Below are positions 1,512 to 46,362 of a stretch of 64,000 nt of DNA, one piece after another. The stretch's first letter is position 1. Each line of letters begins with the position of its first letter. The position numbers and the translations under genes are program-made. The DNA is from Methanomicrobiaceae archaeon (lineage in GTDB: Archaea > Halobacteriota > Methanomicrobia > Methanomicrobiales > Methanomicrobiaceae), in NCBI GenBank assembly GCA_016926855.1, contig JAFGNT010000012.1:1-64000 (forward strand). Direction: 5' to 3'. The notes beneath the pieces were generated by a model, which had not been told where the DNA came from, searched no databases, and worked only from the letters and a program-made list of their open reading frames with translations.

Positions 1512-2639
1512 ATGAAAGGACAATACCTACGCTGGGACCAGACGCTTTTCCGTGACGCAGAAGTCTTCGAATTCGACCATCTCCCCGATGCGTTCCGGCA
1601 CCGGGAGCGGCAGATGAAGGAGCTCGCCTTCCTCGTCGCACCGGGCCTTCGGGGCGGCCGGCCCCTGAGCGCGATCTGCTTCGGCCTGCCGGGGACCGGA
1701 AAAACGACCTGCATGCGCAAGCTCTTCGCCGAGGTCGAGGAGACGACCCGCTCGCTTGTCCCGGTGTACATCAACTGCCAGGTGGACCACACGAAGCTGA
1801 TGGTGTTCTCCAAGATCTACCAGAAGCTCACCGGCCACCTGCCGCAGACGAGCGGGGTCCCGGTCCGGAAGGTGCTCGACGCGATCGCGAGGCACATGAT
1901 CAAGGAGGGCCGGGTGCTGGTGGTCTGCCTGGACGATGCGAACTTCATGCAGGGCGACCGGACCCTGAGCGACACGCTCTACACCCTGCTCCGGACCCAC
2001 GAGGAGTATCCGGGCACCCGGATCGGGGTGATCGCGACGGTCTCCGACGTGCACCATGATCTTGCAGGCGGGCTGGACCCGTGCGTGGTCTCGGTCTTCC
2101 GGCCCTCACGGGTCTACTTCGATCCCTACACGGAGGAGGAGACGCGGGAGATCCTCGCCGAGCGGGTCCGGCAGGGGCTTTACCCCGGCGTGGTCCCGGA
2201 GGCGATGCTCGGTCTGATTGTTGCGCAGACGATGACGTGCGGGGATCTCCGGGTGGGCCTCGATATGCTGAAGCGTTCGGTGCTTGCGGCGGAGCATGAC
2301 GGCCGGACGGAAGTTGCCGAAACGGACATCATGGCGGCCTACGAGATGGCGAAGCATGTCCATCTTGTCGCATCGGTCCGGGCCCTGAGCCCTCCGGAGA
2401 AGCGGCTGCTGCTCCACATCGCGAAGCGGGCCCTCGATGAGGAGGGGGAGATGACATCGGGGGCGGTCTTCCGCTCGGCGAAGGAGTCGATGCGGATGAG
2501 CTACACGGCCTTTTTCGAGCGGCTGAAGAAGTTTGAGGAGATGCGCCTCGCCGAGCTCCGGGCAGTGACCGGCCGGGGCCGGACGCGGGAGATTGTGCTG
2601 CGGTATGATGCGGAGAAGGTGGTGGAGGTGTGCGGGTGA
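1512..2639 (+). CDS. Orc1/Cdc6-family replication initiator
   Basis: Walker A GLPGTGKTT, Walker B VVCLDDAN, C-terminal winged-helix-like region. Confidence 0.9.
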   Translation: MKGQYLRWDQTLFRDAEVFEFDHLPDAFRHRERQMKELAFLVAPGLRGGRPLSAICFGLPGTGKTTCMRKLFAEVEETTRSLVPVYINCQVDHTKLMVFSKIYQKLTGHLPQTSGVPVRKVLDAIARHMIKEGRVLVVCLDDANFMQGDRTLSDTLYTLLRTHEEYPGTRIGVIATVSDVHHDLAGGLDPCVVSVFRPSRVYFDPYTEEETREILAERVRQGLYPGVVPEAMLGLIVAQTMTCGDLRVGLDMLKRSVLAAEHDGRTEVAETDIMAAYEMAKHVHLVASVRALSPPEKRLLLHIAKRALDEEGEMTSGAVFRSAKESMRMSYTAFFERLKKFEEMRLAELRAVTGRGRTREIVLRYDAEKVVEVCG

Positions 2640-2660: not shown

Positions 2661-3206
2661 CTAGTGTATTCCGGAGATCATTTCTTCCAATTGTTTGAAA
2701 CCTTCCTGGGCGGCATCAATGCTTTTTGCCCCGGTAACGATCACACTTCCGGTCGAGAAAAGAAGAAAACTCAAACCCCAATCCTTATAGATCAGCGCCG
2801 GTAACTGCTCCGGTTCGTACTCCGCTTTCTGTGGGTCAAGAGACGCAATGATGGTCTCAAGAGGCGCGTTGAGCTCGATTTTATCTTTGGCGACAACATT
2901 GTTGATAACTACCCTAGCAATGTCTGCATCGATTCCTGTCGACCTGATGAGAGTAAGTATACGCTGAACGATGCTGTCCAGATATTCGATAACGCCTTTA
3001 CCGGTGATTAAATACTTTCCGGACCGGTAAAAAGCGATGTATCGGTTCTCAGGCTGAAGGCGGTACTTCAGCCAGTGGCCGGTTGATTTCTGGAGCATGG
3101 ATCCCTTCAGGTGCGCCTGGAGATATTCGAGATCGAGTGGAACGGTTAGGGTAGCCGTTGCAACAACGTTCGTGATTTCCATATCAATCGTCCGGGTGGT
3201 ACTCAT
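2661..3206 (-). CDS. Divergent TATA-box binding protein (element-encoded)
   Basis: Two-fold TBP repeat (YRSGKYLITG ... YEPEQLPALIY...LLFSTGSVIVTG) aligns with canonical TBP at 45808..46362. Confidence 0.88.
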   Translation of the reverse strand: MSTTRTIDMEITNVVATATLTVPLDLEYLQAHLKGSMLQKSTGHWLKYRLQPENRYIAFYRSGKYLITGKGVIEYLDSIVQRILTLIRSTGIDADIARVVINNVVAKDKIELNAPLETIIASLDPQKAEYEPEQLPALIYKDWGLSFLLFSTGSVIVTGAKSIDAAQEGFKQLEEMISGIH

Positions 3207-3280
3207 TGCAGGTTATGGATGATGAAGGTTACAATCAATAAAACAATATTTAATAGGCTTTCTCATCATCGGATAGGTAT

Positions 3281-5323
3281 ATGGATAATTTCCAGCACAT
3301 CACCAATTTTATATGGAATGTTGCGGATGATGTCCTCCGGGATGATTTTAAGCGCTCAAAATACCCGGACGTTATCCTGCCGTTCACGGTGCTGCGCCGT
3401 ATCGACTGCGTGCTTGCACCGACCAAGGAGAATGTGCTACAGAAATACAACGAACTGAAAGACGAGATCGAAAACCTCGATGGCATTCTCAAACACGAAT
3501 CGGGCTACGCGTTCTATAATGTTTCAAAATACGATTTCAAACGCCTCCTCGATGATCCGGGGAATATCCAGAAGAACCTGATCGACTATATCAACGGCTT
3601 TTCTGAGAATGTCAGGGATATTCTTGACCGGTTCAAGATCCGAAATTCCATCCAGACATTGCACGAGAAGGGATCACTCCACTTCCTCATTCAGAAGTTC
3701 GCCTCCGACACGGTGAACCTCCACCCCGACCGCGTGAGCAGTCACCAGATGGGCTACATTTTTGAGGAGCTCATCCGGAAGTTCAACGAACAGAATAACG
3801 AGAACCCCGGTGAGCACTTCACGCCACGCGAAGTGGTCAAACTGATGGCGAACCTGATGCTCAGCGGCGATGAGGATATGCTCGCCCACAATCATATCAT
3901 CAAGACCGTCTTTGACCCGGCCTGCGGAACCGGAGGCATGCTCTCCGTTACAAAGGAGCATATCCTCGCCGATATCAACCCGAACGCGGATATACGGCTC
4001 TTCGGGCAGGAGACGAACGACGAGACGTATGCGGTCTGCAAGAGCGATATGCTGATCAAGGGCGATGACCGCGATGCGGACAACATCAAACCTGATACCT
4101 CGTTCTCAAGAGACGGCCACGCGGACACGAAGTTCGACTATATGATCTGCAATCCGCCTTACGGGAAGTCGTGGAAGAAAGAGGAGGATTTCATTAAAGC
4201 CGAGTATAATCGCGGGTCGGCCGGGCGTTTCGAGGCGGGTCTTCCCCGTATCAGCGACGGGCAGCTCCTGTTCCTGCAGCATATGATCGCCAAGCGCAAG
4301 GCGCCGGAGGACGGCGGGAGCAGGATCGCGATCGTCATGAACGGCTCGCCGCTCTTCACCGGGGATGCCGGGTCGGGGGAGAGCGAGATCCGGCGCTGGA
4401 TCCTCGAAAACGACTGGCTGGAGGCGATCGTGGCACTTCCGGGCCAGCTCTTCTACAATACGGGGATCAACACCTACATCTGGGTAATGACGAACCGCAA
4501 GGACAAGGCCCGACGGGGAAAGGTGCAGCTCATCGACGCGACCGCATGCTATAAAAAGATGCGAAAGAGCCTCGGGGACAAGCGCCACGAGATCTCCGAT
4601 GAGCAGATCAGGGAGATCACGGGGCTCTTCCACGCCTTTGAGGAGTCGGAGACGGTGAAGATCTTTGCCACTACCGATTTCGGGTACCGGAAGATCACCG
4701 TCGAGCGCCCCCTCCGCCTTAACTTCTGCATGTCTCCTGAGCGGATCGAACGGCTGCAGTCCGAAGGCGCGTTCCAGAGGCTCGCGACGAGCAAGAAGAA
4801 GGGCGATGCCGGGGCTTCTGAGATCGCAGAGGGGAGGCAGAAACAGGAGATGATCCTCTCGGTGCTCCGGGAAATGGCGGGCGACGAGGTCTATCTCGAC
4901 CAGCAACAGTTTGAGAAGATGCTCGCTGCCGGGTTCAAGCAACGCGGGGTGAAACTCGATGCCCCGGTGAAGAAAGCGGTTCTTTCGGCGCTCTCGGAGC
5001 GTGACGAGACCGCTCCTGTCTGCTACAATGCCAGAGGTGAGCCGGAGGCTGATCCAAATCTCCGCGATACCGAGAATGTTCCCCTGAGCGAATCCATATC
5101 CGCGTATTTCGAGCGCGAGGTGCGGCCCCACGTTCCCGACGCCTGGATCAACGATTTGGTCACGGATCCGAAGGACGGACGAATAGGCAAGGTCGGCTAC
5201 GAGATCAACTTCAACCGCTACTTCTACACTTACACGCCGCCCCGGCAGCTGGAGGAGATCGAGGCGGATATCAAGACGCTCGAAGCGGAGATTCTCGTGA
5301 TGGTGAAGGAGATGATGGGATGA
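3281..5323 (+). CDS. hsdM: Type I restriction-modification methyltransferase subunit
   Basis: 680 aa; FDPACGTGGML SAM motif and NPPYG motif; followed by HsdS and HsdR. Confidence 0.95.
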   Translation: MDNFQHITNFIWNVADDVLRDDFKRSKYPDVILPFTVLRRIDCVLAPTKENVLQKYNELKDEIENLDGILKHESGYAFYNVSKYDFKRLLDDPGNIQKNLIDYINGFSENVRDILDRFKIRNSIQTLHEKGSLHFLIQKFASDTVNLHPDRVSSHQMGYIFEELIRKFNEQNNENPGEHFTPREVVKLMANLMLSGDEDMLAHNHIIKTVFDPACGTGGMLSVTKEHILADINPNADIRLFGQETNDETYAVCKSDMLIKGDDRDADNIKPDTSFSRDGHADTKFDYMICNPPYGKSWKKEEDFIKAEYNRGSAGRFEAGLPRISDGQLLFLQHMIAKRKAPEDGGSRIAIVMNGSPLFTGDAGSGESEIRRWILENDWLEAIVALPGQLFYNTGINTYIWVMTNRKDKARRGKVQLIDATACYKKMRKSLGDKRHEISDEQIREITGLFHAFEESETVKIFATTDFGYRKITVERPLRLNFCMSPERIERLQSEGAFQRLATSKKKGDAGASEIAEGRQKQEMILSVLREMAGDEVYLDQQQFEKMLAAGFKQRGVKLDAPVKKAVLSALSERDETAPVCYNARGEPEADPNLRDTENVPLSESISAYFEREVRPHVPDAWINDLVTDPKDGRIGKVGYEINFNRYFYTYTPPRQLEEIEADIKTLEAEILVMVKEMMG

Positions 5324-5387: not shown

Positions 5388-6755
5388 GTGGAAAGCGACG
5401 GTGGCGGCATGAGCACGGGAGCGGACGAGGCCTTCACCATCGACCCGGCGACCGTGCGGGAGTGGAAGCGGTATCCTGAGTATAAGGATTCTGGGGTGGA
5501 ATGGCTCGGGGAGGTACCGGTGGGGTGGAGTAAGCAGAAATTAGGGTGGGTTGCTGACTTGATTGTACCTCAAAGAGATAAACCTCCTATTTTTGGCGGA
5601 AATATTCCTTGGATCCGCATTGAAGATTTCAAAGGAAAATATATTTCAGATTCAAAGTCCGGTCAGCGTGTGAGTCCTGAAACCATCAAAAACATGAATT
5701 TAAAGGTACATCCGGCCGGTACGGTTCTCTGTTCATGTAGTTGTAATATGGGCATAACAGCCATAGTTGAAAGGCCCCTAATTTCAAATCAAACGTTTAT
5801 CGGCATTTTTCCAAGGAAGAACATCAGCTCTGAATTTTTGTATTACCTTATGGGTGGCATAAGTGATCAGTTACAGGCGTTGGGTTCGGGTGCGATCCAA
5901 CAATATTTGTCTCGAGAAAATTTCTACAACCTAAAACTGGCAATTCCACCTCTCCCCGAACAACACACCATCGCCGCCTTCCTCGACCGCGAGACCGCCC
6001 GTATCGACGCCCTCATCGAAAAGAAGCGCCGCTTCATCGAGCTTTTAGAGGAGAAGCGCCAGGCCCTCATCAGCCACGCCGTGACTAAAGGGCTCGACCC
6101 GGATGCGGAGATGAAGGACTCGGGAGTGGAGTGGATCGGAGAGGTGCCGGTGGGATGGGAGATCAAAAAGATTCATCGAATCGTTAAAAGAGTGATAAAT
6201 AAAAATGATGATGGTTCAGAAAGACCGATGCTTTCTTTATCTTCAACTAAAGGAATTGTATATAAAATTTATGAAGATGAATCTTTAATTCGTCCACACG
6301 ATGAATGTCTAACATATCAGATTGTAAAACCAAATCAATTGGTTGTTAATCCGATGTGGATAATCAACTCATCCATAGGAGTTTCTAAGTTGACGGGAAT
6401 AGTAAGTCCCGCATACAGAGTATATGATATTAACAAATCATTGTTGCCTGAATATTTGCATCTTCTCGTAAAATCCCCATTATATATTAGCCAATATTGG
6501 AGATATATTCGTGGACTAAAAACGTATGATCGCTCAGTGAGGGAAATCGATTTCTATCAAATAGAGTGTCTCATACCGCTATATGATGAACAGAAAATGA
6601 TTGTTGAATACATTCAAAGTAATACTTCTCAGTACGACTCTCTAGTTATAAAAACCAATCAGCAAATCGAAAAACTCCAGGAATTCCGCACCGCCCTCAT
6701 CTCCGCTGCCGTGACCGGGAAGATCGACGTCCGGGGCGAGGAGGAGGCCGCATGA
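5388..6755 (+). CDS. hsdS: Type I restriction specificity subunit
   Basis: Two TRDs with repeated conserved segments (KDSGVEWLGEVPVGW / KDSGVEWIGEVPVGW); PLPEQ..IAAFLD; start may be ATG at 5409. Confidence 0.93.
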   Translation: MESDGGGMSTGADEAFTIDPATVREWKRYPEYKDSGVEWLGEVPVGWSKQKLGWVADLIVPQRDKPPIFGGNIPWIRIEDFKGKYISDSKSGQRVSPETIKNMNLKVHPAGTVLCSCSCNMGITAIVERPLISNQTFIGIFPRKNISSEFLYYLMGGISDQLQALGSGAIQQYLSRENFYNLKLAIPPLPEQHTIAAFLDRETARIDALIEKKRRFIELLEEKRQALISHAVTKGLDPDAEMKDSGVEWIGEVPVGWEIKKIHRIVKRVINKNDDGSERPMLSLSSTKGIVYKIYEDESLIRPHDECLTYQIVKPNQLVVNPMWIINSSIGVSKLTGIVSPAYRVYDINKSLLPEYLHLLVKSPLYISQYWRYIRGLKTYDRSVREIDFYQIECLIPLYDEQKMIVEYIQSNTSQYDSLVIKTNQQIEKLQEFRTALISAAVTGKIDVRGEEEAA

Positions 6756-7117
6756 AGCGGGATATGGATCTAGTGCGGCAGATCCTCCTTGAGGTTGAGA
6801 AGAATTCGGATGCATATGCACCAGTTGAGCTCAGCATAGAGGGCTACTCTGAGAATGACATTGCACATCACATTGCCCTTCTCGTGGAAGCAGGACTACT
6901 CGTCAATTTTTTCAACGATGGCAAAATCTTTCCTGTCGCTATGGCCACCCAGATGACTTGGGCAGGCCACGACTTCCTCGACGCCTGCCGTGACGAGGGT
7001 CGGTGGCAGAAAGCGAAGAGTATTATCGGAGAGCAGGTGAAGAGCGCCCCGTTTGATGTCCTCAAAGTGGTTCTCGTGAAGTTGATCGAACTCCAGGTAT
7101 ACCAAGCAATCACGTAG
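6752..7117 (+). CDS. DUF2513-like protein
   Basis: MKRDMDLVRQILLEVE...H..LL.EAGL...TWAGHDFLD pattern; overlaps hsdS stop by 4 nt. Confidence 0.75.
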   Translation: MKRDMDLVRQILLEVEKNSDAYAPVELSIEGYSENDIAHHIALLVEAGLLVNFFNDGKIFPVAMATQMTWAGHDFLDACRDEGRWQKAKSIIGEQVKSAPFDVLKVVLVKLIELQVYQAIT

Positions 7118-7310: not shown

Positions 7311-10300
7311 ATGACCGTCACAGTATCGGAAGCGGATTTTGAAGAGACGATTGCTAGGACACTCACCGGCGACCTTCCCCCCACGCTCGATGAGGAGAAC
7401 CCGTTCGTCAATCCGTCATTCCACTACCACCAGCGGAGCAGCGCCGACTACGACCGCGACCTCTGCTTCATCCCGGACGACCTCTGTGCCTTCATCTACG
7501 CCACGCAGGCCGGAGAGTGGGAGAAACTCAAACGGCAGCGGGGGGCTGACACCCGCCGGGCCTTCCTCCGCCGGGTGCAGTCCGAGATCGAGAAACGGGG
7601 CACGATAGACGTCCTCAGGAAGGGAATACGCGACCTCGGGTGCACCTTCCACCTCGCCTACTTCAAACCGAACTCCACCTTAAACGTGACGCACCGGAAC
7701 CTCTACCTGCAGAACGTCTTCTCGGTTGTCCGCCAGCTCCACTTCTCGAGCAGGAGCGAGCAGTCCCTCGACCTCGCCGTCTTCGTCAACGGCATCCCAA
7801 TCTTCACCGCCGAACTTAAGGACCCGCTCACCGGGCAGACGGTCGAGCACGCAATACGGCAGTACCGGAGAGATCGCGACCCGAAGGAACCGCTCTTCGC
7901 CTACGGACGGTGCCTTGCACACTTTGCCGTCGACCCGAACCTCGCCTACATGACCACCCACCTGAAAGGCGGAAAGACAACCTTTCTCCCCTTCAACCGC
8001 GGCGACCCGTACGACAGCGTCCACCCGGAACAAAATCCGAACAATCCTCACGGCTACGACACCGCCTACCTCTGGGAGGAGGTCTGGAACACCGAGAGCG
8101 TGCTTGATATCCTTGAGCACTTCGTTCACGAAGTCGAGGAGCGGGACGAGAACGGAAAGAAGACCGGCAGGAAACTCCTCTTCCCCCGCTACCACCAGCT
8201 CAACGCCGTCCGCCGCCTCATCCTCCACGCCCGGTCGAACCCCACCGGTGAGAGCTACCTCGTCCAGCACAGCGCCGGCAGCGGAAAGAGCAATACCATC
8301 GCATGGCTCGCCTACTACCTGACCTCCCTCTACGACAATACAGACCAGCGGCTCTTCGACTCGATTATCGTCATCACCGATCGCCGGGTCCTCGACCAGC
8401 AGCTCCAGGACACCATCCGCCAGTTCGAGCAGGTCAAAGGGGTGATCTCCACCATCTCCGGCCGGAAGGCGAAGGGGCTCTCTGAAGCGCTCAGCGAGAA
8501 CAAGGACATCATCGTCGTCACTGTCCAGACCTTTCCTCACGCCATAGCCGAGATCGTCAGGCGGCCCGGGAACCGGTTCGCCGTCATCATCGACGAGGCG
8601 CACTCATCCCAGAGCGGGAGGAGTGCACGTAGCGTTCGCGAAGTCCTCTCCCCGAAGACTCTTGAGGAGGCAGTGTTCCTCGAAGAACCGGAGATGGACG
8701 ACGAAGACCTGATAAACAGCCAGATCGAGTCGTATCTCAAGCGGACACAGCGCCCGCCCAACGTCTCGTTCTTCGCCTTTACCGCGACCCCGAAGCAGAA
8801 AACCCTCGAACTCTTCGGGCGCAGAAACCGCATGGGGAATTTCGAGCCGTTCCACCTCTACAGCATGCACCAGGCGATCGCCGAAGGATTCATCCTCGAC
8901 GTCCTTAAGAACTATACCACCTTCAAAGTCTACTTCAACCTGCTCAAAAAGATAGCAGACGACCCGCAGTATCCCAAACGGAAGGCGACCGCCCTCCTCC
9001 GGTCGTACGTGGATCTCCACGAACACGCGATCAACAAAAAGTGCGAGATCATCCTCGACCACTTCTCACACGAGGTCATGCACCGGATCGGCGGGCAGGC
9101 CAAGGCGATGATCGTCACCCGCTCCCGGCTCCACGCTGTCCGGTACAAGCGAACGATCGACCGGCTCATCCGGGAGAACAAGCTCCCATTTAAAGCCCTC
9201 GTCGCCTTCTCCGGCGAGGTCCCGGACCCGGATATCCACGAGACATTCACCGAGGGCGGGATGAACGGATTTCCTGACCGCCAGACCGCAGCAGAGTTTA
9301 AAAAGTCGGAGAACCGGCTCCTTATTGTCGCAAACAAGTACCAGACAGGATTCGACCAGCCGCTACTCCACACCATGTACGTGGACAAAAAGCTCTCCGG
9401 TGTTGCCGCCGTCCAGACACTCTCCCGGCTGAACCGGATCCACCCGCGAAAAAGCGAAACACTGGTGCTCGACTTCGCAAACGACGCTTCCGAGATCGAG
9501 AAGTCCTTTGCACCCTACTATGAAACGACCCTCCTCGATAAACCGACAGATCCGAACCGATTGTACGATCTGCAGTACCAGCTCGATCAGGCCTCACTAT
9601 ACACCTCAGATGAGGTGGAGGCATTCGGCAATGAGTACTTCGCCCCGAAGGGCAGACAGGAAATGCTTCATACCATTATCCGGCCGGTCGCCGAGAACTA
9701 CACACATCTGGCAAAGGAAGATCGCGAGACGTTCAAAAAGACGCTGCGGCAGTTCGTCAATCTCTATGCGTTCCTCTCGCAGATCATCACCTTTCAGGAC
9801 ATCCCGCTCGAGAAGTACTACCAGTTCGCCCGCTACCTCCAGAAAGCCCTTCCAAAAGAACATGAGCGGCTCCCGGTCGATGTGCTCGAAAATATCGATA
9901 TGGACTCGTACCGGATTCAGGAGACCAGCAGCGGGAAGATCCTGATCAATGCGGACGGAACACTCAAGCAGCCGGATGAAGGTCTTCTGCACCCGTTGCC
10001 GGAAGAAAAGGCCCCCCTCTCGGAGATCATCCAGTACATCAATGAAAACTACGGCACTGATTTCACCAACAAGGATAAACTCGCCTACTTCGCCGATGAC
10101 ATGGAGAAGAGATTGATAGCGAATACCACGTTACGGCAGACGTTCAACCCGGAGATTAACTCAAAGGAGAATGTTCGCATCGCCTTCAACAACTTCTTTG
10201 AGGATACGCTTATCGAGATGCTCTCTACGAACAAGGAGATCTTCAAGAAGATCAACGACGATGAGGCCTTTGCCAGGCTCTTCAAGGGTTATATGTTCAG

Positions 10301-10337
10301 TCGCATCTACGAGCAGGTAGTGTCGGGAACCGGCTAA
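7311..10337 (+). CDS. hsdR: Type I restriction endonuclease subunit R
   Basis: 1008 aa; N-terminal nuclease region (SLDLAVFVNGIPIFTAELK), HSAGSGKSNT Walker A, IIDEAHSSQSG. Confidence 0.95.
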   Translation: MTVTVSEADFEETIARTLTGDLPPTLDEENPFVNPSFHYHQRSSADYDRDLCFIPDDLCAFIYATQAGEWEKLKRQRGADTRRAFLRRVQSEIEKRGTIDVLRKGIRDLGCTFHLAYFKPNSTLNVTHRNLYLQNVFSVVRQLHFSSRSEQSLDLAVFVNGIPIFTAELKDPLTGQTVEHAIRQYRRDRDPKEPLFAYGRCLAHFAVDPNLAYMTTHLKGGKTTFLPFNRGDPYDSVHPEQNPNNPHGYDTAYLWEEVWNTESVLDILEHFVHEVEERDENGKKTGRKLLFPRYHQLNAVRRLILHARSNPTGESYLVQHSAGSGKSNTIAWLAYYLTSLYDNTDQRLFDSIIVITDRRVLDQQLQDTIRQFEQVKGVISTISGRKAKGLSEALSENKDIIVVTVQTFPHAIAEIVRRPGNRFAVIIDEAHSSQSGRSARSVREVLSPKTLEEAVFLEEPEMDDEDLINSQIESYLKRTQRPPNVSFFAFTATPKQKTLELFGRRNRMGNFEPFHLYSMHQAIAEGFILDVLKNYTTFKVYFNLLKKIADDPQYPKRKATALLRSYVDLHEHAINKKCEIILDHFSHEVMHRIGGQAKAMIVTRSRLHAVRYKRTIDRLIRENKLPFKALVAFSGEVPDPDIHETFTEGGMNGFPDRQTAAEFKKSENRLLIVANKYQTGFDQPLLHTMYVDKKLSGVAAVQTLSRLNRIHPRKSETLVLDFANDASEIEKSFAPYYETTLLDKPTDPNRLYDLQYQLDQASLYTSDEVEAFGNEYFAPKGRQEMLHTIIRPVAENYTHLAKEDRETFKKTLRQFVNLYAFLSQIITFQDIPLEKYYQFARYLQKALPKEHERLPVDVLENIDMDSYRIQETSSGKILINADGTLKQPDEGLLHPLPEEKAPLSEIIQYINENYGTDFTNKDKLAYFADDMEKRLIANTTLRQTFNPEINSKENVRIAFNNFFEDTLIEMLSTNKEIFKKINDDEAFARLFKGYMFSRIYEQVVSGTG

Positions 10338-10395
10338 CTCCCGGTGAGAAGATTATGAGTATATCATGAAAGCGGCGGAGACATCGAGAGATTGA

Positions 10396-10656
10396 TCAAA
10401 TGTTGGGAGAATCTGGAGTCAGCATACTATTTTTTAATCCTATAATCGCCGTTATCAAGTAGAAGCTAAACATCAGCATCAGATATCGATTTTCATCTGC
10501 ATACGAAAAAGCAAGCCATATCAAATTCCCCACTATCCAGCAGCCAAACCCCGCCCGCCGGATGCCCCGGGCCTTTGCCGTCACCAGCACGGCCCCCGCC
10601 ATACCGAGCACAACCGCGGGCCCCTGCAATAAATCAAAAAAGAGAGGGGGCACCAT
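10396..10656 (-). CDS. Small membrane protein
   Basis: MVPPLFFDLLQGPAVVLGMAGAVLV...; ATG directly after the upstream primase stop (10658). Confidence 0.55.
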   Translation of the reverse strand: MVPPLFFDLLQGPAVVLGMAGAVLVTAKARGIRRAGFGCWIVGNLIWLAFSYADENRYLMLMFSFYLITAIIGLKNSMLTPDSPNI

Positions 10657-10657
10657 C

Positions 10658-13603
10658 CTACCGCACCCCCTGTCCTTTATTCCACTCCCGCACCAGCCTC
10701 CCGTAACACTCCTCGCAGATCGCGCTGTGATCACCGGCCGAATGGAACACCGCTTTTCCTTCGCCGCAGATCCGGCACGTGCCGAGCTCGACGCCCGTTC
10801 GCACAAACGCCCGGTGGTCGAGCACGCCGGGGAGCGGCCGGGCCCGGGCCGTCGTCTTCCCGCCTTTCGCCCGCGTCAGGCAGGTGTAGCAGAGGTACTC
10901 CGGCGGGTCGCCCGAGCCCTTCCGGAGTGAGGAGACCGGACCGCCGCCGCAGACGTGGCATGGCTCGTCCTTCATCACCGGGAGCGGGAGGTAGTCGGCC
11001 GGGTTGAGGGCTCCCCGCTTTGCAGCAGGCGGTCTGCTGCCGCCATCTTTGCGGATCGTGCCGGAAGCCGATCCGGCGACGTTCAGGCCACCGCGAGGGG
11101 AGTGCGGCCCTTTCTGCGGAGATGGTTTTTGGTTTACAGCATCCGGCAGAACACAGACACCCACCCACGCACCGCCGGGCTCACCACCCGGCTTCCGTGT
11201 GCTCTCTAACTGCTGTATAGTACTATCATGTACTGTACGTCTCTCCAGTACAGGGGAAGGGAGAGAAGAATCCGGGCCGTCCTGCCGCTCGCCGTCTTTG
11301 CGGTCCGTGCTGCAATCCTGCGCCAAACCCGCTGCAGTGTTGCAATCGTTCGCGAGCCAGATCCCCGGCCCGGCGATCCATTCCCGGTACACCTCCGTAT
11401 CGAACGAGAAGTGGTGCTCCCGCCGCCGGACCGTGTAGCCGATGCAGTCCTCCGCGACCGTCGCATCCACGAAGGAGACCGCCGGGCACTTCGAGAGCAG
11501 CCCCGCGTACTCCGCCCCCCGGCTCGCATACCCGTGGAGGATGCGGTAGGTCTGGTAGTAGGTGAGCCCCGTCGCCTGCTGGAGCTGCTTGATGGTGAAG
11601 ACCTCCGCCCCCATCGCCGAGACCGTTTCGAGGGCCGCCGCCTCGTTCTTGGTAAGCTTCGTCTCCTGCCCACCGGTCGCCCCGTTCAGCGAGGCGTAGA
11701 GCTCGACCGCGACATCGAAGTCCTCCCGTGTCGCCAGGATGCAGAGCTCGCCCGACGCCGACGGCACCCGCTCGCGCTGCAGGCACCGGAGCAGGGCGTG
11801 GCACTTGATGAGGTCGAAGAGGATGCCGGGGTTCCGGCGGTTCGCGGCGTTCGAGAACTGGATGCGGGTCGCGAACGGGATAGTGACGTGGATGAGCCGC
11901 TCCTTGAGGACGGCCCATATCGCCCGGCAGACGTGCACCTCCCGGGAGACCGTCCCCGCTTCCGGGCCCTGCTCCTCGCTCGTCTTGAGGTGGGTGAGCA
12001 CGGCCGCGTCCTGCTCCTTCGAGTCGTCGATCCAGACTGTGAGCATCCGGTTCATCACCTGATCGTCGCCGACGTTCTCGACCTTCGCGAGCCACCAGAC
12101 ACAGCGCGGAGGAATTGTGCAGACCCGGAGCTGCCGGTCGGTGGTGAGCGTCCGGTGCTCGATGGGCTCTTTGAAGTTCGCGGTCGAGGACTTGAGGAGT
12201 TCCTGCAGGTCCTCGGAGAGGGTCACGTCGTCGAAGAGCAGCACGGTGCCGGGCCGGAGGGCGTCGTGGTAGAAGAGGGCCTTGTTCGAGACCGTGCCGG
12301 TGAGCCGGTACTCCTCGGGGAGGAGGGAGAGCATCGTCTTGCAGGCGTGGGTCTTGCCCTTGCCGGAGTTGCCCGAGATGGCGACGTGGAGGCCGCGGGT
12401 GTTCGCGACCTGCTGCGAGGCGACCGACATGATGAGGCACGTCGCCACCGCCGTATCGCCGACGTGATCACGGTGGAAGGCCTCGAGCATGAAGGCAAGC
12501 GGGTCGCCCTCCCGGAGAATCGCAAGGACCCGTTCCCGGCAGCGGTCGGTGGCCGCCGGGTCCGGGGCGGGGGGAGGCGTAAGTGTCTCCTCCTTCTTCT
12601 TCTGCGTCCGCTTCTCCCGCGGCTCGTAGCGGCCCCGGAGCTCGGGCCACCGCTGGCTGCCGCCGCCGCAGGAGGCGTGGTGGCACCCGGCAAAGACGGC
12701 GCCGTTTCCGAACTGGATGGCGAACGCTCCGTCCCGGTGGGCCGATGAGAAGGGGCAGTCCTCGAGGACGAAGAGGGTGCCCCCCTGCCAGGGCTTCTCG
12801 TCGGCGACGCCGAGGCCGTGGTCCCGGAGCCAGGTGCGGAGGTCGATGCCGGCGCCGGATTGTTTCGGGGGTGCGGGCTCCCTCGGGAGGAGGTCGGCGA
12901 GCCGCCGGAGCTGCTCGTCGGAGACCACGGCCGCCTCCTCCGGCACCCGGATCAGCCGGGCCGTCCGGTGGGGCCGCTCGGGGGTGTGGTCGCCCTTCTT
13001 CGAGGTCGTGCCGTAGAGCTTCCAGATCCGGGCGGCGTTGTAATTCGCGGTATCGACTGTGACGCCTGCGCCGGAGAAGAGGGCGTCGAGGGTCGTGAGG
13101 CAGGCCTTCACGAGTGCCGTCGCCGCCTCGTCGTTGTCCAGATCGATCCGGTAGAGCAGGTGGGCCCCGTTCCCGGAATCGGCGAGGACCGGGGCGGGGA
13201 AACCCTGCTCCGAGAGCCACCCCGCGATCCGGTCGGCCCGGGCGAGTGCTGCAGCGTGCTCCTCCTCCGAGGACGAAACCCCGCTCGGCCGGACCGGGTC
13301 GAGGTCCACCGGGAGCCACCGGCGCCGGATGATGTCGGCGTCGGCAGTGGTCGAGTCCTTCCTCCCGAGCTTCATCTTGATCCGGTTTGCCCGGCGGGAG
13401 AGGAGGGCCGGGTTCACCGCGTTGAGGGTGACGTAGACGCCCTGCACTTCGTTGAGCCGGTCGAGGAAGCGGGCCTTCTCTGCGAGTGCAGCGTGGTCGT
13501 CGAAGTAGCCGGAGTGGGTCGCGTAGTCGGCGAGCGCCCGGACCTCGACGACCCCGCCCTCAGGGAAGAGGACCGCGAGGGCCCGCGTGATCTCGTCGGT
13601 CAC
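10658..13603 (-). CDS. Primase-helicase (AEP PrimPol + P-loop helicase + zinc motifs)
   Basis: AEP motifs LPVDLDP, SGNGAHLLY, VDTANYNAARIWKLYGT; Walker A SGNSGKGKTH; VLLFDD; C-terminal CxxC clusters. Confidence 0.85.
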   Translation of the reverse strand: MTDEITRALAVLFPEGGVVEVRALADYATHSGYFDDHAALAEKARFLDRLNEVQGVYVTLNAVNPALLSRRANRIKMKLGRKDSTTADADIIRRRWLPVDLDPVRPSGVSSSEEEHAAALARADRIAGWLSEQGFPAPVLADSGNGAHLLYRIDLDNDEAATALVKACLTTLDALFSGAGVTVDTANYNAARIWKLYGTTSKKGDHTPERPHRTARLIRVPEEAAVVSDEQLRRLADLLPREPAPPKQSGAGIDLRTWLRDHGLGVADEKPWQGGTLFVLEDCPFSSAHRDGAFAIQFGNGAVFAGCHHASCGGGSQRWPELRGRYEPREKRTQKKKEETLTPPPAPDPAATDRCRERVLAILREGDPLAFMLEAFHRDHVGDTAVATCLIMSVASQQVANTRGLHVAISGNSGKGKTHACKTMLSLLPEEYRLTGTVSNKALFYHDALRPGTVLLFDDVTLSEDLQELLKSSTANFKEPIEHRTLTTDRQLRVCTIPPRCVWWLAKVENVGDDQVMNRMLTVWIDDSKEQDAAVLTHLKTSEEQGPEAGTVSREVHVCRAIWAVLKERLIHVTIPFATRIQFSNAANRRNPGILFDLIKCHALLRCLQRERVPSASGELCILATREDFDVAVELYASLNGATGGQETKLTKNEAAALETVSAMGAEVFTIKQLQQATGLTYYQTYRILHGYASRGAEYAGLLSKCPAVSFVDATVAEDCIGYTVRRREHHFSFDTEVYREWIAGPGIWLANDCNTAAGLAQDCSTDRKDGERQDGPDSSLPSPVLERRTVHDSTIQQLESTRKPGGEPGGAWVGVCVLPDAVNQKPSPQKGPHSPRGGLNVAGSASGTIRKDGGSRPPAAKRGALNPADYLPLPVMKDEPCHVCGGGPVSSLRKGSGDPPEYLCYTCLTRAKGGKTTARARPLPGVLDHRAFVRTGVELGTCRICGEGKAVFHSAGDHSAICEECYGRLVREWNKGQGVR

Positions 13604-15852: not shown

Positions 15853-17082
15853 TTAAATCTCCCCCTTCCGCATTTTCTCCTCAATCAACTCGTTCAACAA
15901 CTTCTTCACCAGCTCCGGGTTCGCGAGCACATCCTTCGCCATCTCTTCCTGCGTCACCGCACCGTCCTCTGAGAGCGACCGGCCGCAGGTCATGCAGTAG
16001 ATGCCCTTCGGTGGGTTGATGGTCCGGCAGTGCGGGCACTGCACCGGCTCAAGCAGGCCGTCATCCTGCGTCTCCTTCGGCACGATGCCATACTGGCCGA
16101 GCACTTCCTGGTCGATGTCATTCCCTGAGAGGTGGGCGTAGGTCGCGAACATGTTGGTGTTGATATTGCCCCACATCATCAGCTTGATCACCGACTCCTT
16201 CATGCCCTGGTTGATGAGGTGGGTGATCCGGGAGTGGCGGAAGATGTGCGGGGTGACCTTCTTCGTGATCCCGGCCCGCTTTGCGAGCTTGTAAAGGTGC
16301 TGGTAGATCGTGCCGTGGGCCAGCGGCTTGTGCTGGTGGGTGATGAAGACGAGGTGCTTGCCCGTCGGTTCGTGGGGGTAGTCCTGCCGCCATGCAGCGA
16401 GGTAGGGCTGTGCGAGCACCAGCCGGACATAGCGCTGCTGGTGGCATTTGGTGTCGTCGATGGTGAGCACGAGGCCGTACTCGTCGAAACGGATCCGGTC
16501 CCATGTCAGCCGGGCCAGCTCCCCGATCCGGCACCCGGACTCGTAGAGCAGCGCCACGAGGGCCCGGTCCCGGGAGGAGAGGGAGGCCCTGATCAGTGCC
16601 TCGATCTCTTCCTTTGTGAGCAGCTGCTCGGGGAGCTTGGTGTTCCGGTCCACCCGCGGGGGCCGGATCTTCTGGACCTTCTCCCTCGGCACGTCGGCGT
16701 AGCCGTTGTCGATCATCCAGAGGTAGAACCTCTTGAGAAAAAGGATGTAGTCGTGCAGGGTGTTCTGCTTAAACGGCCTGCCTTTGATGTTCGTCCCGGC
16801 CTTGATGGTCGCGATGGCCCGGTAAATCTCCCCGATGGTGTTGGAGCGGTAGGGCCCGATGAACCGTCGCCAGTTGACAAGGTGCGAGGTGATCTTGTTC
16901 ACCCGGACCTGGCCGATGCCCTGGGAGGCCTGCAGCTCGGCGATGAATTCGTGGATGAGATTTACATCGTCCTGGGTGAGCAGCTTGTTAGCGATCCCGT
17001 TTGCGATCGACCTGCTTGCATATTCTGACTTGATGAGATGAAACTCTCGATCTGACTGGGTGGGTGCTGTGAATGTTCCCAT
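15853..17082 (-). CDS. Tyrosine recombinase/integrase with C-terminal zinc ribbon
   Basis: ALLYESGCRIGELARLTWDRI...TPHIFRHSRITHLINQG...YAHLS; CPHC...CMTCG; adjacent to tRNA 3' end. Confidence 0.93.
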   Translation of the reverse strand: MGTFTAPTQSDREFHLIKSEYASRSIANGIANKLLTQDDVNLIHEFIAELQASQGIGQVRVNKITSHLVNWRRFIGPYRSNTIGEIYRAIATIKAGTNIKGRPFKQNTLHDYILFLKRFYLWMIDNGYADVPREKVQKIRPPRVDRNTKLPEQLLTKEEIEALIRASLSSRDRALVALLYESGCRIGELARLTWDRIRFDEYGLVLTIDDTKCHQQRYVRLVLAQPYLAAWRQDYPHEPTGKHLVFITHQHKPLAHGTIYQHLYKLAKRAGITKKVTPHIFRHSRITHLINQGMKESVIKLMMWGNINTNMFATYAHLSGNDIDQEVLGQYGIVPKETQDDGLLEPVQCPHCRTINPPKGIYCMTCGRSLSEDGAVTQEEMAKDVLANPELVKKLLNELIEEKMRKGEI

Positions 17083-17145
17083 GAAAGGAAGGTCAGAAGA
17101 TGAGTATATAAGGATTTAGGAGCAGAATTGAACCTGAATAAGGAA

Positions 17146-17218
17146 TGCTGCTATGGGGATTTGAACCCCAGTCGTCGGCGTGAAAGGCCGACATGATTGG
17201 CCCCTACACTATAGCAGC
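17146..17218 (-). tRNA. tRNA-Glu (UUC)
   Basis: 73 nt cloverleaf: GCTGCTA/TAGCAGC acceptor, TCGGC-CTTTCAC-GCCGA anticodon arm, GGGGTTCAAATCCCC T arm. Confidence 0.95.
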
Positions 17219-45807: not shown

Positions 45808-46362
45808 TTACATGATATTGGCGAGTTTTTGCTCGAGGAAATCAAGCCCGCGTTTGATGTCCTCCATATTCTTTCCGCCGGTGAGGATGATTTTTCCGGA
45901 TGAGAAGAGGAGTGCAACGATTTTCGGGTCTTTTATGCGGTATACGAGTCCGGGGAACTGCTCAGGTTCATATTCGATGTTTTCCAGATTGAGGGTGATC
46001 ACTACTTTGTTGAGATTGATGTAGTTCCCGAGGTCATACGAACAGACAATGTTTGTAATGGCGACCTGTGGTTCGTCGTGTGTGTCGACACCCGCTTCTT
46101 TTAAGGACTTTATGATAAGATTGAGGCCGGTGTGCAGATCCTCCCTGTTCCTGATGCCGGTAAGGACCACTTTTCCCGAGGAGAAGATCAGGGATGCGAT
46201 TTTGGGTGATTCGATGCGATATACCGCACCCGGAAACCGTTTGGTGTTCAGTTCGCAGTTCTCGATTTTTTTGGATACGTCTTCGAGGTCGATTGTATCG
46301 GCAATGACTCCTGAGGCGACAATATTTTCGATTTTTAGTGACTCATACCTCTTGTCATCCAT
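45808..46362 (-). CDS. tbp: TATA-box binding protein (canonical)
   Basis: RFPGAVYRI..LIFSSGKVVLTG; QFPGLVYRI..LLFSSGKIILTG. Confidence 0.96.
   Translation of the reverse strand: MDDKRYESLKIENIVASGVIADTIDLEDVSKKIENCELNTKRFPGAVYRIESPKIASLIFSSGKVVLTGIRNREDLHTGLNLIIKSLKEAGVDTHDEPQVAITNIVCSYDLGNYINLNKVVITLNLENIEYEPEQFPGLVYRIKDPKIVALLFSSGKIILTGGKNMEDIKRGLDFLEQKLANIM

Follow-up and report, generated by a model that had tools for sequence, protein, structure and literature searches.

Of the two halves of the TATA box, the upstream one is bound by the C-terminal repeat of TBP, whose stirrup also contacts TFB (through its EPEQF motif in solved complexes), and the downstream one by the N-terminal repeat. 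TBP paralogues that lack some of the intercalating phenylalanines, such as eukaryotic TRF2/TBPL1 and trypanosome TRF4, serve special promoters. Why archaea keep several TBPs is an open question. Haloarchaeal TbpC has lost the N-terminal pair of phenylalanines; such losses recur, and in 2014 the proteins were judged to be nonfunctional or very specialised, with no tbpC transcript detected in PHH1 (PMC4230888, accessible text). Deletion of tbpC from NRC-1 produced no apparent phenotype (PMC2121645, tbpC passages). Restriction genes are not mentioned for TbpC in the accessible text of the former paper or in the tbpC passages of the latter. TBP proteins also occur in bacterial TOTE/TALON conflict systems (PMC12458937). 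A search of the open-access literature (subscription papers lay outside it) found no report of an archaeal TBP paralogue linked to RM or BREX operons; the Phe-pair loss in TbpC is already published, as far as the accessible text of PMC4230888 goes, and the link to defence described here is new within that literature.

The gene considered here belongs to a Methanomicrobiaceae archaeon and lies in a contig stretch of 64,000 nucleotides, the whole of which is called the window. The features of the locus are as follows.

1512 to 2639, plus strand: orc1/cdc6, convergent with tbp (NCBIfam NF001624, 457.9 bits)
2661 to 3206, minus strand: variant TBP gene, 181 amino acids (Pfam TBP, alignments, structure model and PDB search)
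3207 to 3280, no strand: divergent intergenic stretch between tbp and hsdM (from the sequence)
3281 to 5323, plus strand: HsdM, type I methyltransferase subunit (Pfam HsdM_N 92.2 bits, N6_Mtase 212.8 bits)
5388 to 6755, plus strand: HsdS specificity subunit (Pfam Methylase_S, 73.3 bits)
6752 to 7117, plus strand: DUF2513 protein in the RM operon, between hsdS and hsdR (Pfam DUF2513, 89.9 bits)
7311 to 10337, plus strand: HsdR restriction subunit (Pfam HSDR_N, SWI2_SNF2, ResIII)
10658 to 13603, minus strand: primase-like element protein (ORFs read by eye)
15853 to 17218, minus strand: tyrosine recombinase (15853-17082) abutting tRNA-Glu (17146-17218)

The type I RM set adjoining tbp is complete, with HsdM, HsdS and HsdR all present and all open by Pfam. 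A TATA-like AT-rich core, CAATATTTAATAG on the plus strand, lies within 3207-3280 and is common to the two divergent genes, making the stretch a candidate shared promoter/operator of tbp and hsdM. Comparison with relatives suggests that the actual start of tbp may be the ATG at 3182 (MEITN...) rather than 3206. The gene is carried by an integrated element, as originally proposed, with a tyrosine recombinase beside tRNA-Glu, orc1 and a primase-like gene; the recombinase and tRNA-Glu at 15853-17218 are likely the integration end of an element that reaches the left end of the contig. A homologue of the primase-like protein, sharing its N-terminal motif, is encoded at 10343-13429 of locus L063, near the variant TBP of G188, and the window and G188 elements therefore share a replication module. 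A recombinase of similar look lies near the variant TBP in G015. The presence of the window gene on an element with orc1 and a recombinase speaks for the idea, raised in the original prediction, of promoter choice across the element, in which the variant TBP would drive many element genes and its linkage to RM would reflect only what genes the element happens to contain; the evidence against this reading comes from the census below.

The window protein has the two repeats (Pfam PF00352, 98.8 bits) and the saddle fold of a TBP. Its AlphaFold2 model (pLDDT 89.7) returned 44 PDB matches at E<=0.001, every one a TBP or a TBP-containing chain, with TM scores of 0.8 and above to TBP crystal structures and a maximum of about 0.86. 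Repeat 1 reads KSTGHWLKYRL...YIAFYRSGK, with Gly in place of the first intercalating Phe (F1) and Tyr in place of the second (F2); repeat 2 reads EPEQLPALIYK...FLLFSTGS, with Leu at F3, Phe retained at F4 and the EPEQ stirrup motif present. HMMER alignments to solved TBPs run without gaps across the Phe stretch, and the F1-F2 spacing of 17 residues in canonical TBP is the same from G43 to Y60 in the window protein, where His44 and Trp45 follow position 43. The hand alignment behind the original prediction was thus correct, and its claim that three of the four intercalating phenylalanines are lost is literally true of this copy: Gly43, Tyr60 and Leu stayed in place at F1, F2 and F3, and no alignment to solved TBPs restored Phe. 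The Leu codon at F3 is TTA, one base from Phe (TTT/TTC), and this change, private to the window copy, might even be an artefact of assembly. Two further TBPs are encoded in the same genome, one at 45808-46362 in the window and one on contig C16, and both are canonical.

Related proteins were gathered into a methanogen subfamily of 16, made up of nine from 232 genomes of the order, five from a 397-genome sample of the phylum and two from a Methanomassiliicoccus-type class, which score 180-316 bits as against at most 110 bits for ordinary TBPs. In all 16 members F1 is absent, replaced by any residue, and F2 is Tyr; the repeat-2 Phe pair is retained in 15, the exception being the window copy. Loss of the repeat-1 pair is therefore what the family has in common, and loss of three out of four is not a family trait, since F3 is Leu in the window copy alone. 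The proposed rebuilding of the DNA-binding face stands in the sense that the face is both altered and conserved, but across the family it is confined to the N-terminal repeat, and the C-terminal pair is kept. A very divergent TBP from another family of the order (G034; L224 8934-9509), left outside the subfamily by score, has Tyr at F2 and adjoins BrxL- and PglZ-like genes.

The new form of the repeat-1 face is conserved in the subfamily (WLKYRL; YIAFYKSGKFL, with AFYKSGK at its core), and dN/dS is 0.08-0.3 across computable pairs, with values of 0.13-0.17 for the window TBP against two orthologues, indicating purifying selection. These data argue that repeat 1 is a remodelled half and not a decaying one. 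A decaying, non-functional TBP copy, as was once proposed for haloarchaeal TbpC, would account for the Phe losses, for the additional F3 change in the window copy and for a tbpC that is silent and dispensable in the laboratory (accessible parts of PMC4230888 and PMC2121645); it is hard to square with these dN/dS values, with the conserved WLKYRL and AFYKSGK motifs or with Tyr at F2 in 56 of 61 variants, and we consider it very improbable. EPEQF is likewise retained in 56 of 61 variants. With this stirrup and the C-terminal Phe pair kept, the variant TBP does not look gutted but seems able to work with host TFB. One protein (L204), which has Trp at F1 but keeps Phe at F2, was placed in neither the canonical nor the signature class. 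In a full-length tree, a single branch (99/95; recovered in 98% of bootstrap trees) separates the variants from the canonical TBPs; when the columns of the altered repeat-1 face are removed, or repeat 2 is used alone, the tree calls for two to three separate origins of the variants (2-3 changes). A single origin for all variants, those of the TbpC class included, is accordingly not claimed here.

We next consider the genes around the variants. In the window, tbp is divergent from hsdM-hsdS-DUF2513-hsdR, and in G655 it is divergent from an hsdR-S-M set. Other type I arrangements are hsdS-tbp-hsdM with overlapping gene ends (G170), hsdM-hsdS-hsdR-tbp (G251), hsdR-hsdS-hsdM-x-tbp (G479), tbp..hsdM-hsdS-hsdR (G273) and hsdS..Mrr-like..hsdR-like..tbp (G188). 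BREX genes take their place in G015, where the order is PglX..SLFN_AlbA_2..PglZ-BrxL-tbp with a convergent orc1, and in G424, where BrxA/B/C (BrxC, 1635 bits) lie opposite tbp; the SLFN_AlbA_2 gene of G015 is found again on the short contigs of G108 and G110. A type ISP RM enzyme follows tbp in L039, and DUF2290 and a UvrD-like helicase lie near it in G018. No RM or BREX neighbour was confirmed at G137 (contig edge), G214 or G447. A search for TBP paralogues beside orc1 and hsdM, as originally suggested, bore out its second half, in that RM genes, including hsdM sets, recur; orc1 was rejected as the key partner, being convergent in the window and G015 and visible by eye as an orc1-like remnant close to the gene in G018 but absent from most relatives, and it is RM or BREX genes that are common.

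A plasmid and phage search with the window protein returned haloarchaeal TBPs, and those with an altered repeat 1 adjoin RM or BREX genes. In four haloarchaea the order is IIG methyltransferase-helicase-tbp with overlapping ends; elsewhere brxC..MTase-tbp-pglZ-brxL, SprT-HsdR-HsdS-HsdM or DUF1156/DUF499/McrBC genes surround the variant. Overlap of tbp with hsdM/hsdS or methyltransferase-helicase genes inside operons, and a coupling that is strong to DNA-modifying systems and not to other element genes, would suit a role for the variant TBP within the defence enzyme itself, as a minor-groove binding or bending subunit of a methyltransferase/helicase complex rather than a transcription factor. 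However, the partners are diverse (type I, IIG with helicase, ISP, BREX, DUF1156/DUF499), which is hard for a single subunit and easy for a regulator; the TFB-contacting EPEQF motif is kept; and several copies, in the window and elsewhere, are divergent single genes. We regard such a subunit as unlikely. At seven haloarchaeal loci (L121, L167, L171, L177, L179, L180 and L183) two different variant TBP-like genes lie close together, and these may work as a pair.

Two haloviruses carry TBPs of their own. In HRTV-9 (L134) a type IIG RM gene lies directly upstream of a variant TBP, and in HJTV-2 (L135) an N4 methyltransferase and an Eco29kI-type gene lie near a TBP in which F2 is Ala, not Tyr. Such viral genes might point to a decoy, the other role put forward originally. 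In the form considered here, a variant of this kind would sequester TFB or TATA boxes of the host, damping transcription during infection, or would sense or oppose viruses bringing a TBP. A kept C-terminal TFB surface combined with lost N-terminal kink residues would also fit a competitor of this kind. Yet the RM enzymes beside the viral TBPs belong to the viruses themselves, a pattern that resembles the RM linkage seen elsewhere and not counter-defence, and expression of a protein that traps TFB in general would be toxic; a decoy is in our judgement a poor candidate, less probable than an enzyme subunit. Kinship to IMG/VR viral TBPs was considered and rejected, as Phe at F2 is retained in most of the examples recovered (L042-L047), which cluster with the canonical proteins. 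Two TBPs from these viral contigs have a loop insertion in repeat 1.

The linkage was quantified in a census of fresh loci from a search of the phylum, in which only earlier loci supplied the seed proteins, the cut-off was 100 bits and an RM or BREX gene had to lie within 5 kb. Such a gene was found at 13 of 20 fresh variant loci and, under an equal rule, at 0 of 42 canonical TBPs with all four Phe (Fisher p about 1e-8, some loci being related to one another and so not fully independent events). Six more loci were resolved by Pfam and PADLOC (methyltransferase/helicase/PglZ and BrxC), which brings the variants to 19 of 20, an extra effort spent on variant loci and not on controls. Pfam families were also counted without seeds, and in equal fashion, for the four genes closest to tbp at 20 loci of each kind (79 neighbours each), which gave N6_Mtase 12, Eco57I 11, ResIII 6, HSDR_N 5 and Methylase_S 3 among the variant neighbours; none of these is among the 25 commonest families listed for the canonical neighbours, below which single hits could be hidden, and PADLOC tallies agree. 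TBPs with an altered repeat 1 thus accompany restriction and BREX systems of archaea almost without exception. Such constancy suggests that these defence systems bring along a core transcription factor in a version of their own, probably for self-control.

The census also bears on promoter choice across the element. Canonical TBPs on haloarchaeal plasmids, which have all four Phe, had no RM or BREX neighbour at the loci examined (0 of about 12; Fisher p 0.0004 for the variants against these controls alone), and the variants sit inside RM operons themselves, not anywhere on the element. We accordingly rate that reading low, a shade beneath the decoy.

Our preferred reading, held tentatively at a little under an even chance, is that the variant is a TBP paralogue that serves one mobile DNA-defence operon (in the window, a type I RM system), which it would regulate together with host TFB. 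The sequences show the TBP fold, a C-terminal face that is canonical in the family, a conserved altered N-terminal face and the linkage to RM or BREX genes, whether within an operon or divergently arranged. The C-terminal repeat would bind the upstream half of the TATA box and, through EPEQF, host TFB, and the altered N-terminal repeat would read a different downstream half or bend DNA less. Given such a split of DNA reading and TFB binding, the protein might act mainly at the promoter of the defence operon that carries it, controlling it much as RM C proteins or BrxR do. Since the TFB surface is kept, an activator is slightly more likely than a repressor. A plausible use, and a further guess, would be to delay or gate restriction until the DNA of a new host is methylated.

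Several observations weigh against a dedicated controller. Loss of tbpC from NRC-1 was without apparent phenotype and its transcript was undetected in PHH1 (PMC2121645 and PMC4230888, in the parts noted above); operon or divergent placement fits a structural role too; and no clear common motif that could serve as an operator was seen when the DNA preceding the window gene was compared with that of the two relatives nearest to it. The variant TBP is also optional for type I RM, because most type I systems of the order have no TBP (HsdM_N occurs in 31 of 40 relatives, whereas 9 of the order's 232 genomes have a variant TBP). The broader proposition, that a basal-factor paralogue is a standard accessory of RM, BREX and similar defence systems in archaea, with a TBP of rebuilt N-terminal half working with host TFB at a dedicated promoter, is possible and held somewhat more loosely than the reading for this locus. 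If it is true, expression of a defence operon depends on a factor carried by the operon itself, anti-virus systems use a modified general transcription factor, the long-unexplained TbpC proteins are accounted for, and nature has provided an experiment on half a TATA-binding saddle.

TRF2/TBPL1 and TRF4, which resemble the variant TBP in lacking some of the intercalating Phe, are nuclear factors and are not known to be linked to defence genes. The TOTE/TALON systems (PMC12458937) resemble the window locus in being defence-type operons that encode TBP proteins, but they are bacterial and have TPR-CSD and other TOTE partners, whereas Pfam recognised no TPR-CSD or TOTE effector among the six genes around the window TBP, which are orc1 and type I RM genes only. 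RM C proteins and BrxR/CapW-type WYL regulators are small DNA-binding regulators encoded, as variant tbp is, beside many different RM and BREX systems and are candidate functional analogues, although theirs is an HTH or WYL fold and the variant, by Pfam and PDB search, has the TBP fold and neither of those. Close to the window family stands TbpC, described in the accessible text of PMC4230888 as largely accessory and often plasmid-borne; its members, too, are TBP paralogues in which the N-terminal Phe pair is gone and the C-terminal one remains. The window TBP shares the loss, and the retained pair, replaced in part by Leu at F3 in the window copy, is seen in its 15 relatives. Identity between the methanogen proteins and TbpC is only about 30%, and the former have a repeat-1 motif of their own, WLKYRL...AFYKSGK. 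The pNRC100 copy fits the published tbpC, by pattern and not by name, and the haloarchaeal copies examined here share with the methanogen subfamily both Tyr at F2 and RM or BREX neighbours. It is this near-constant place in restriction and BREX operons that offers TbpC-type proteins a testable job.
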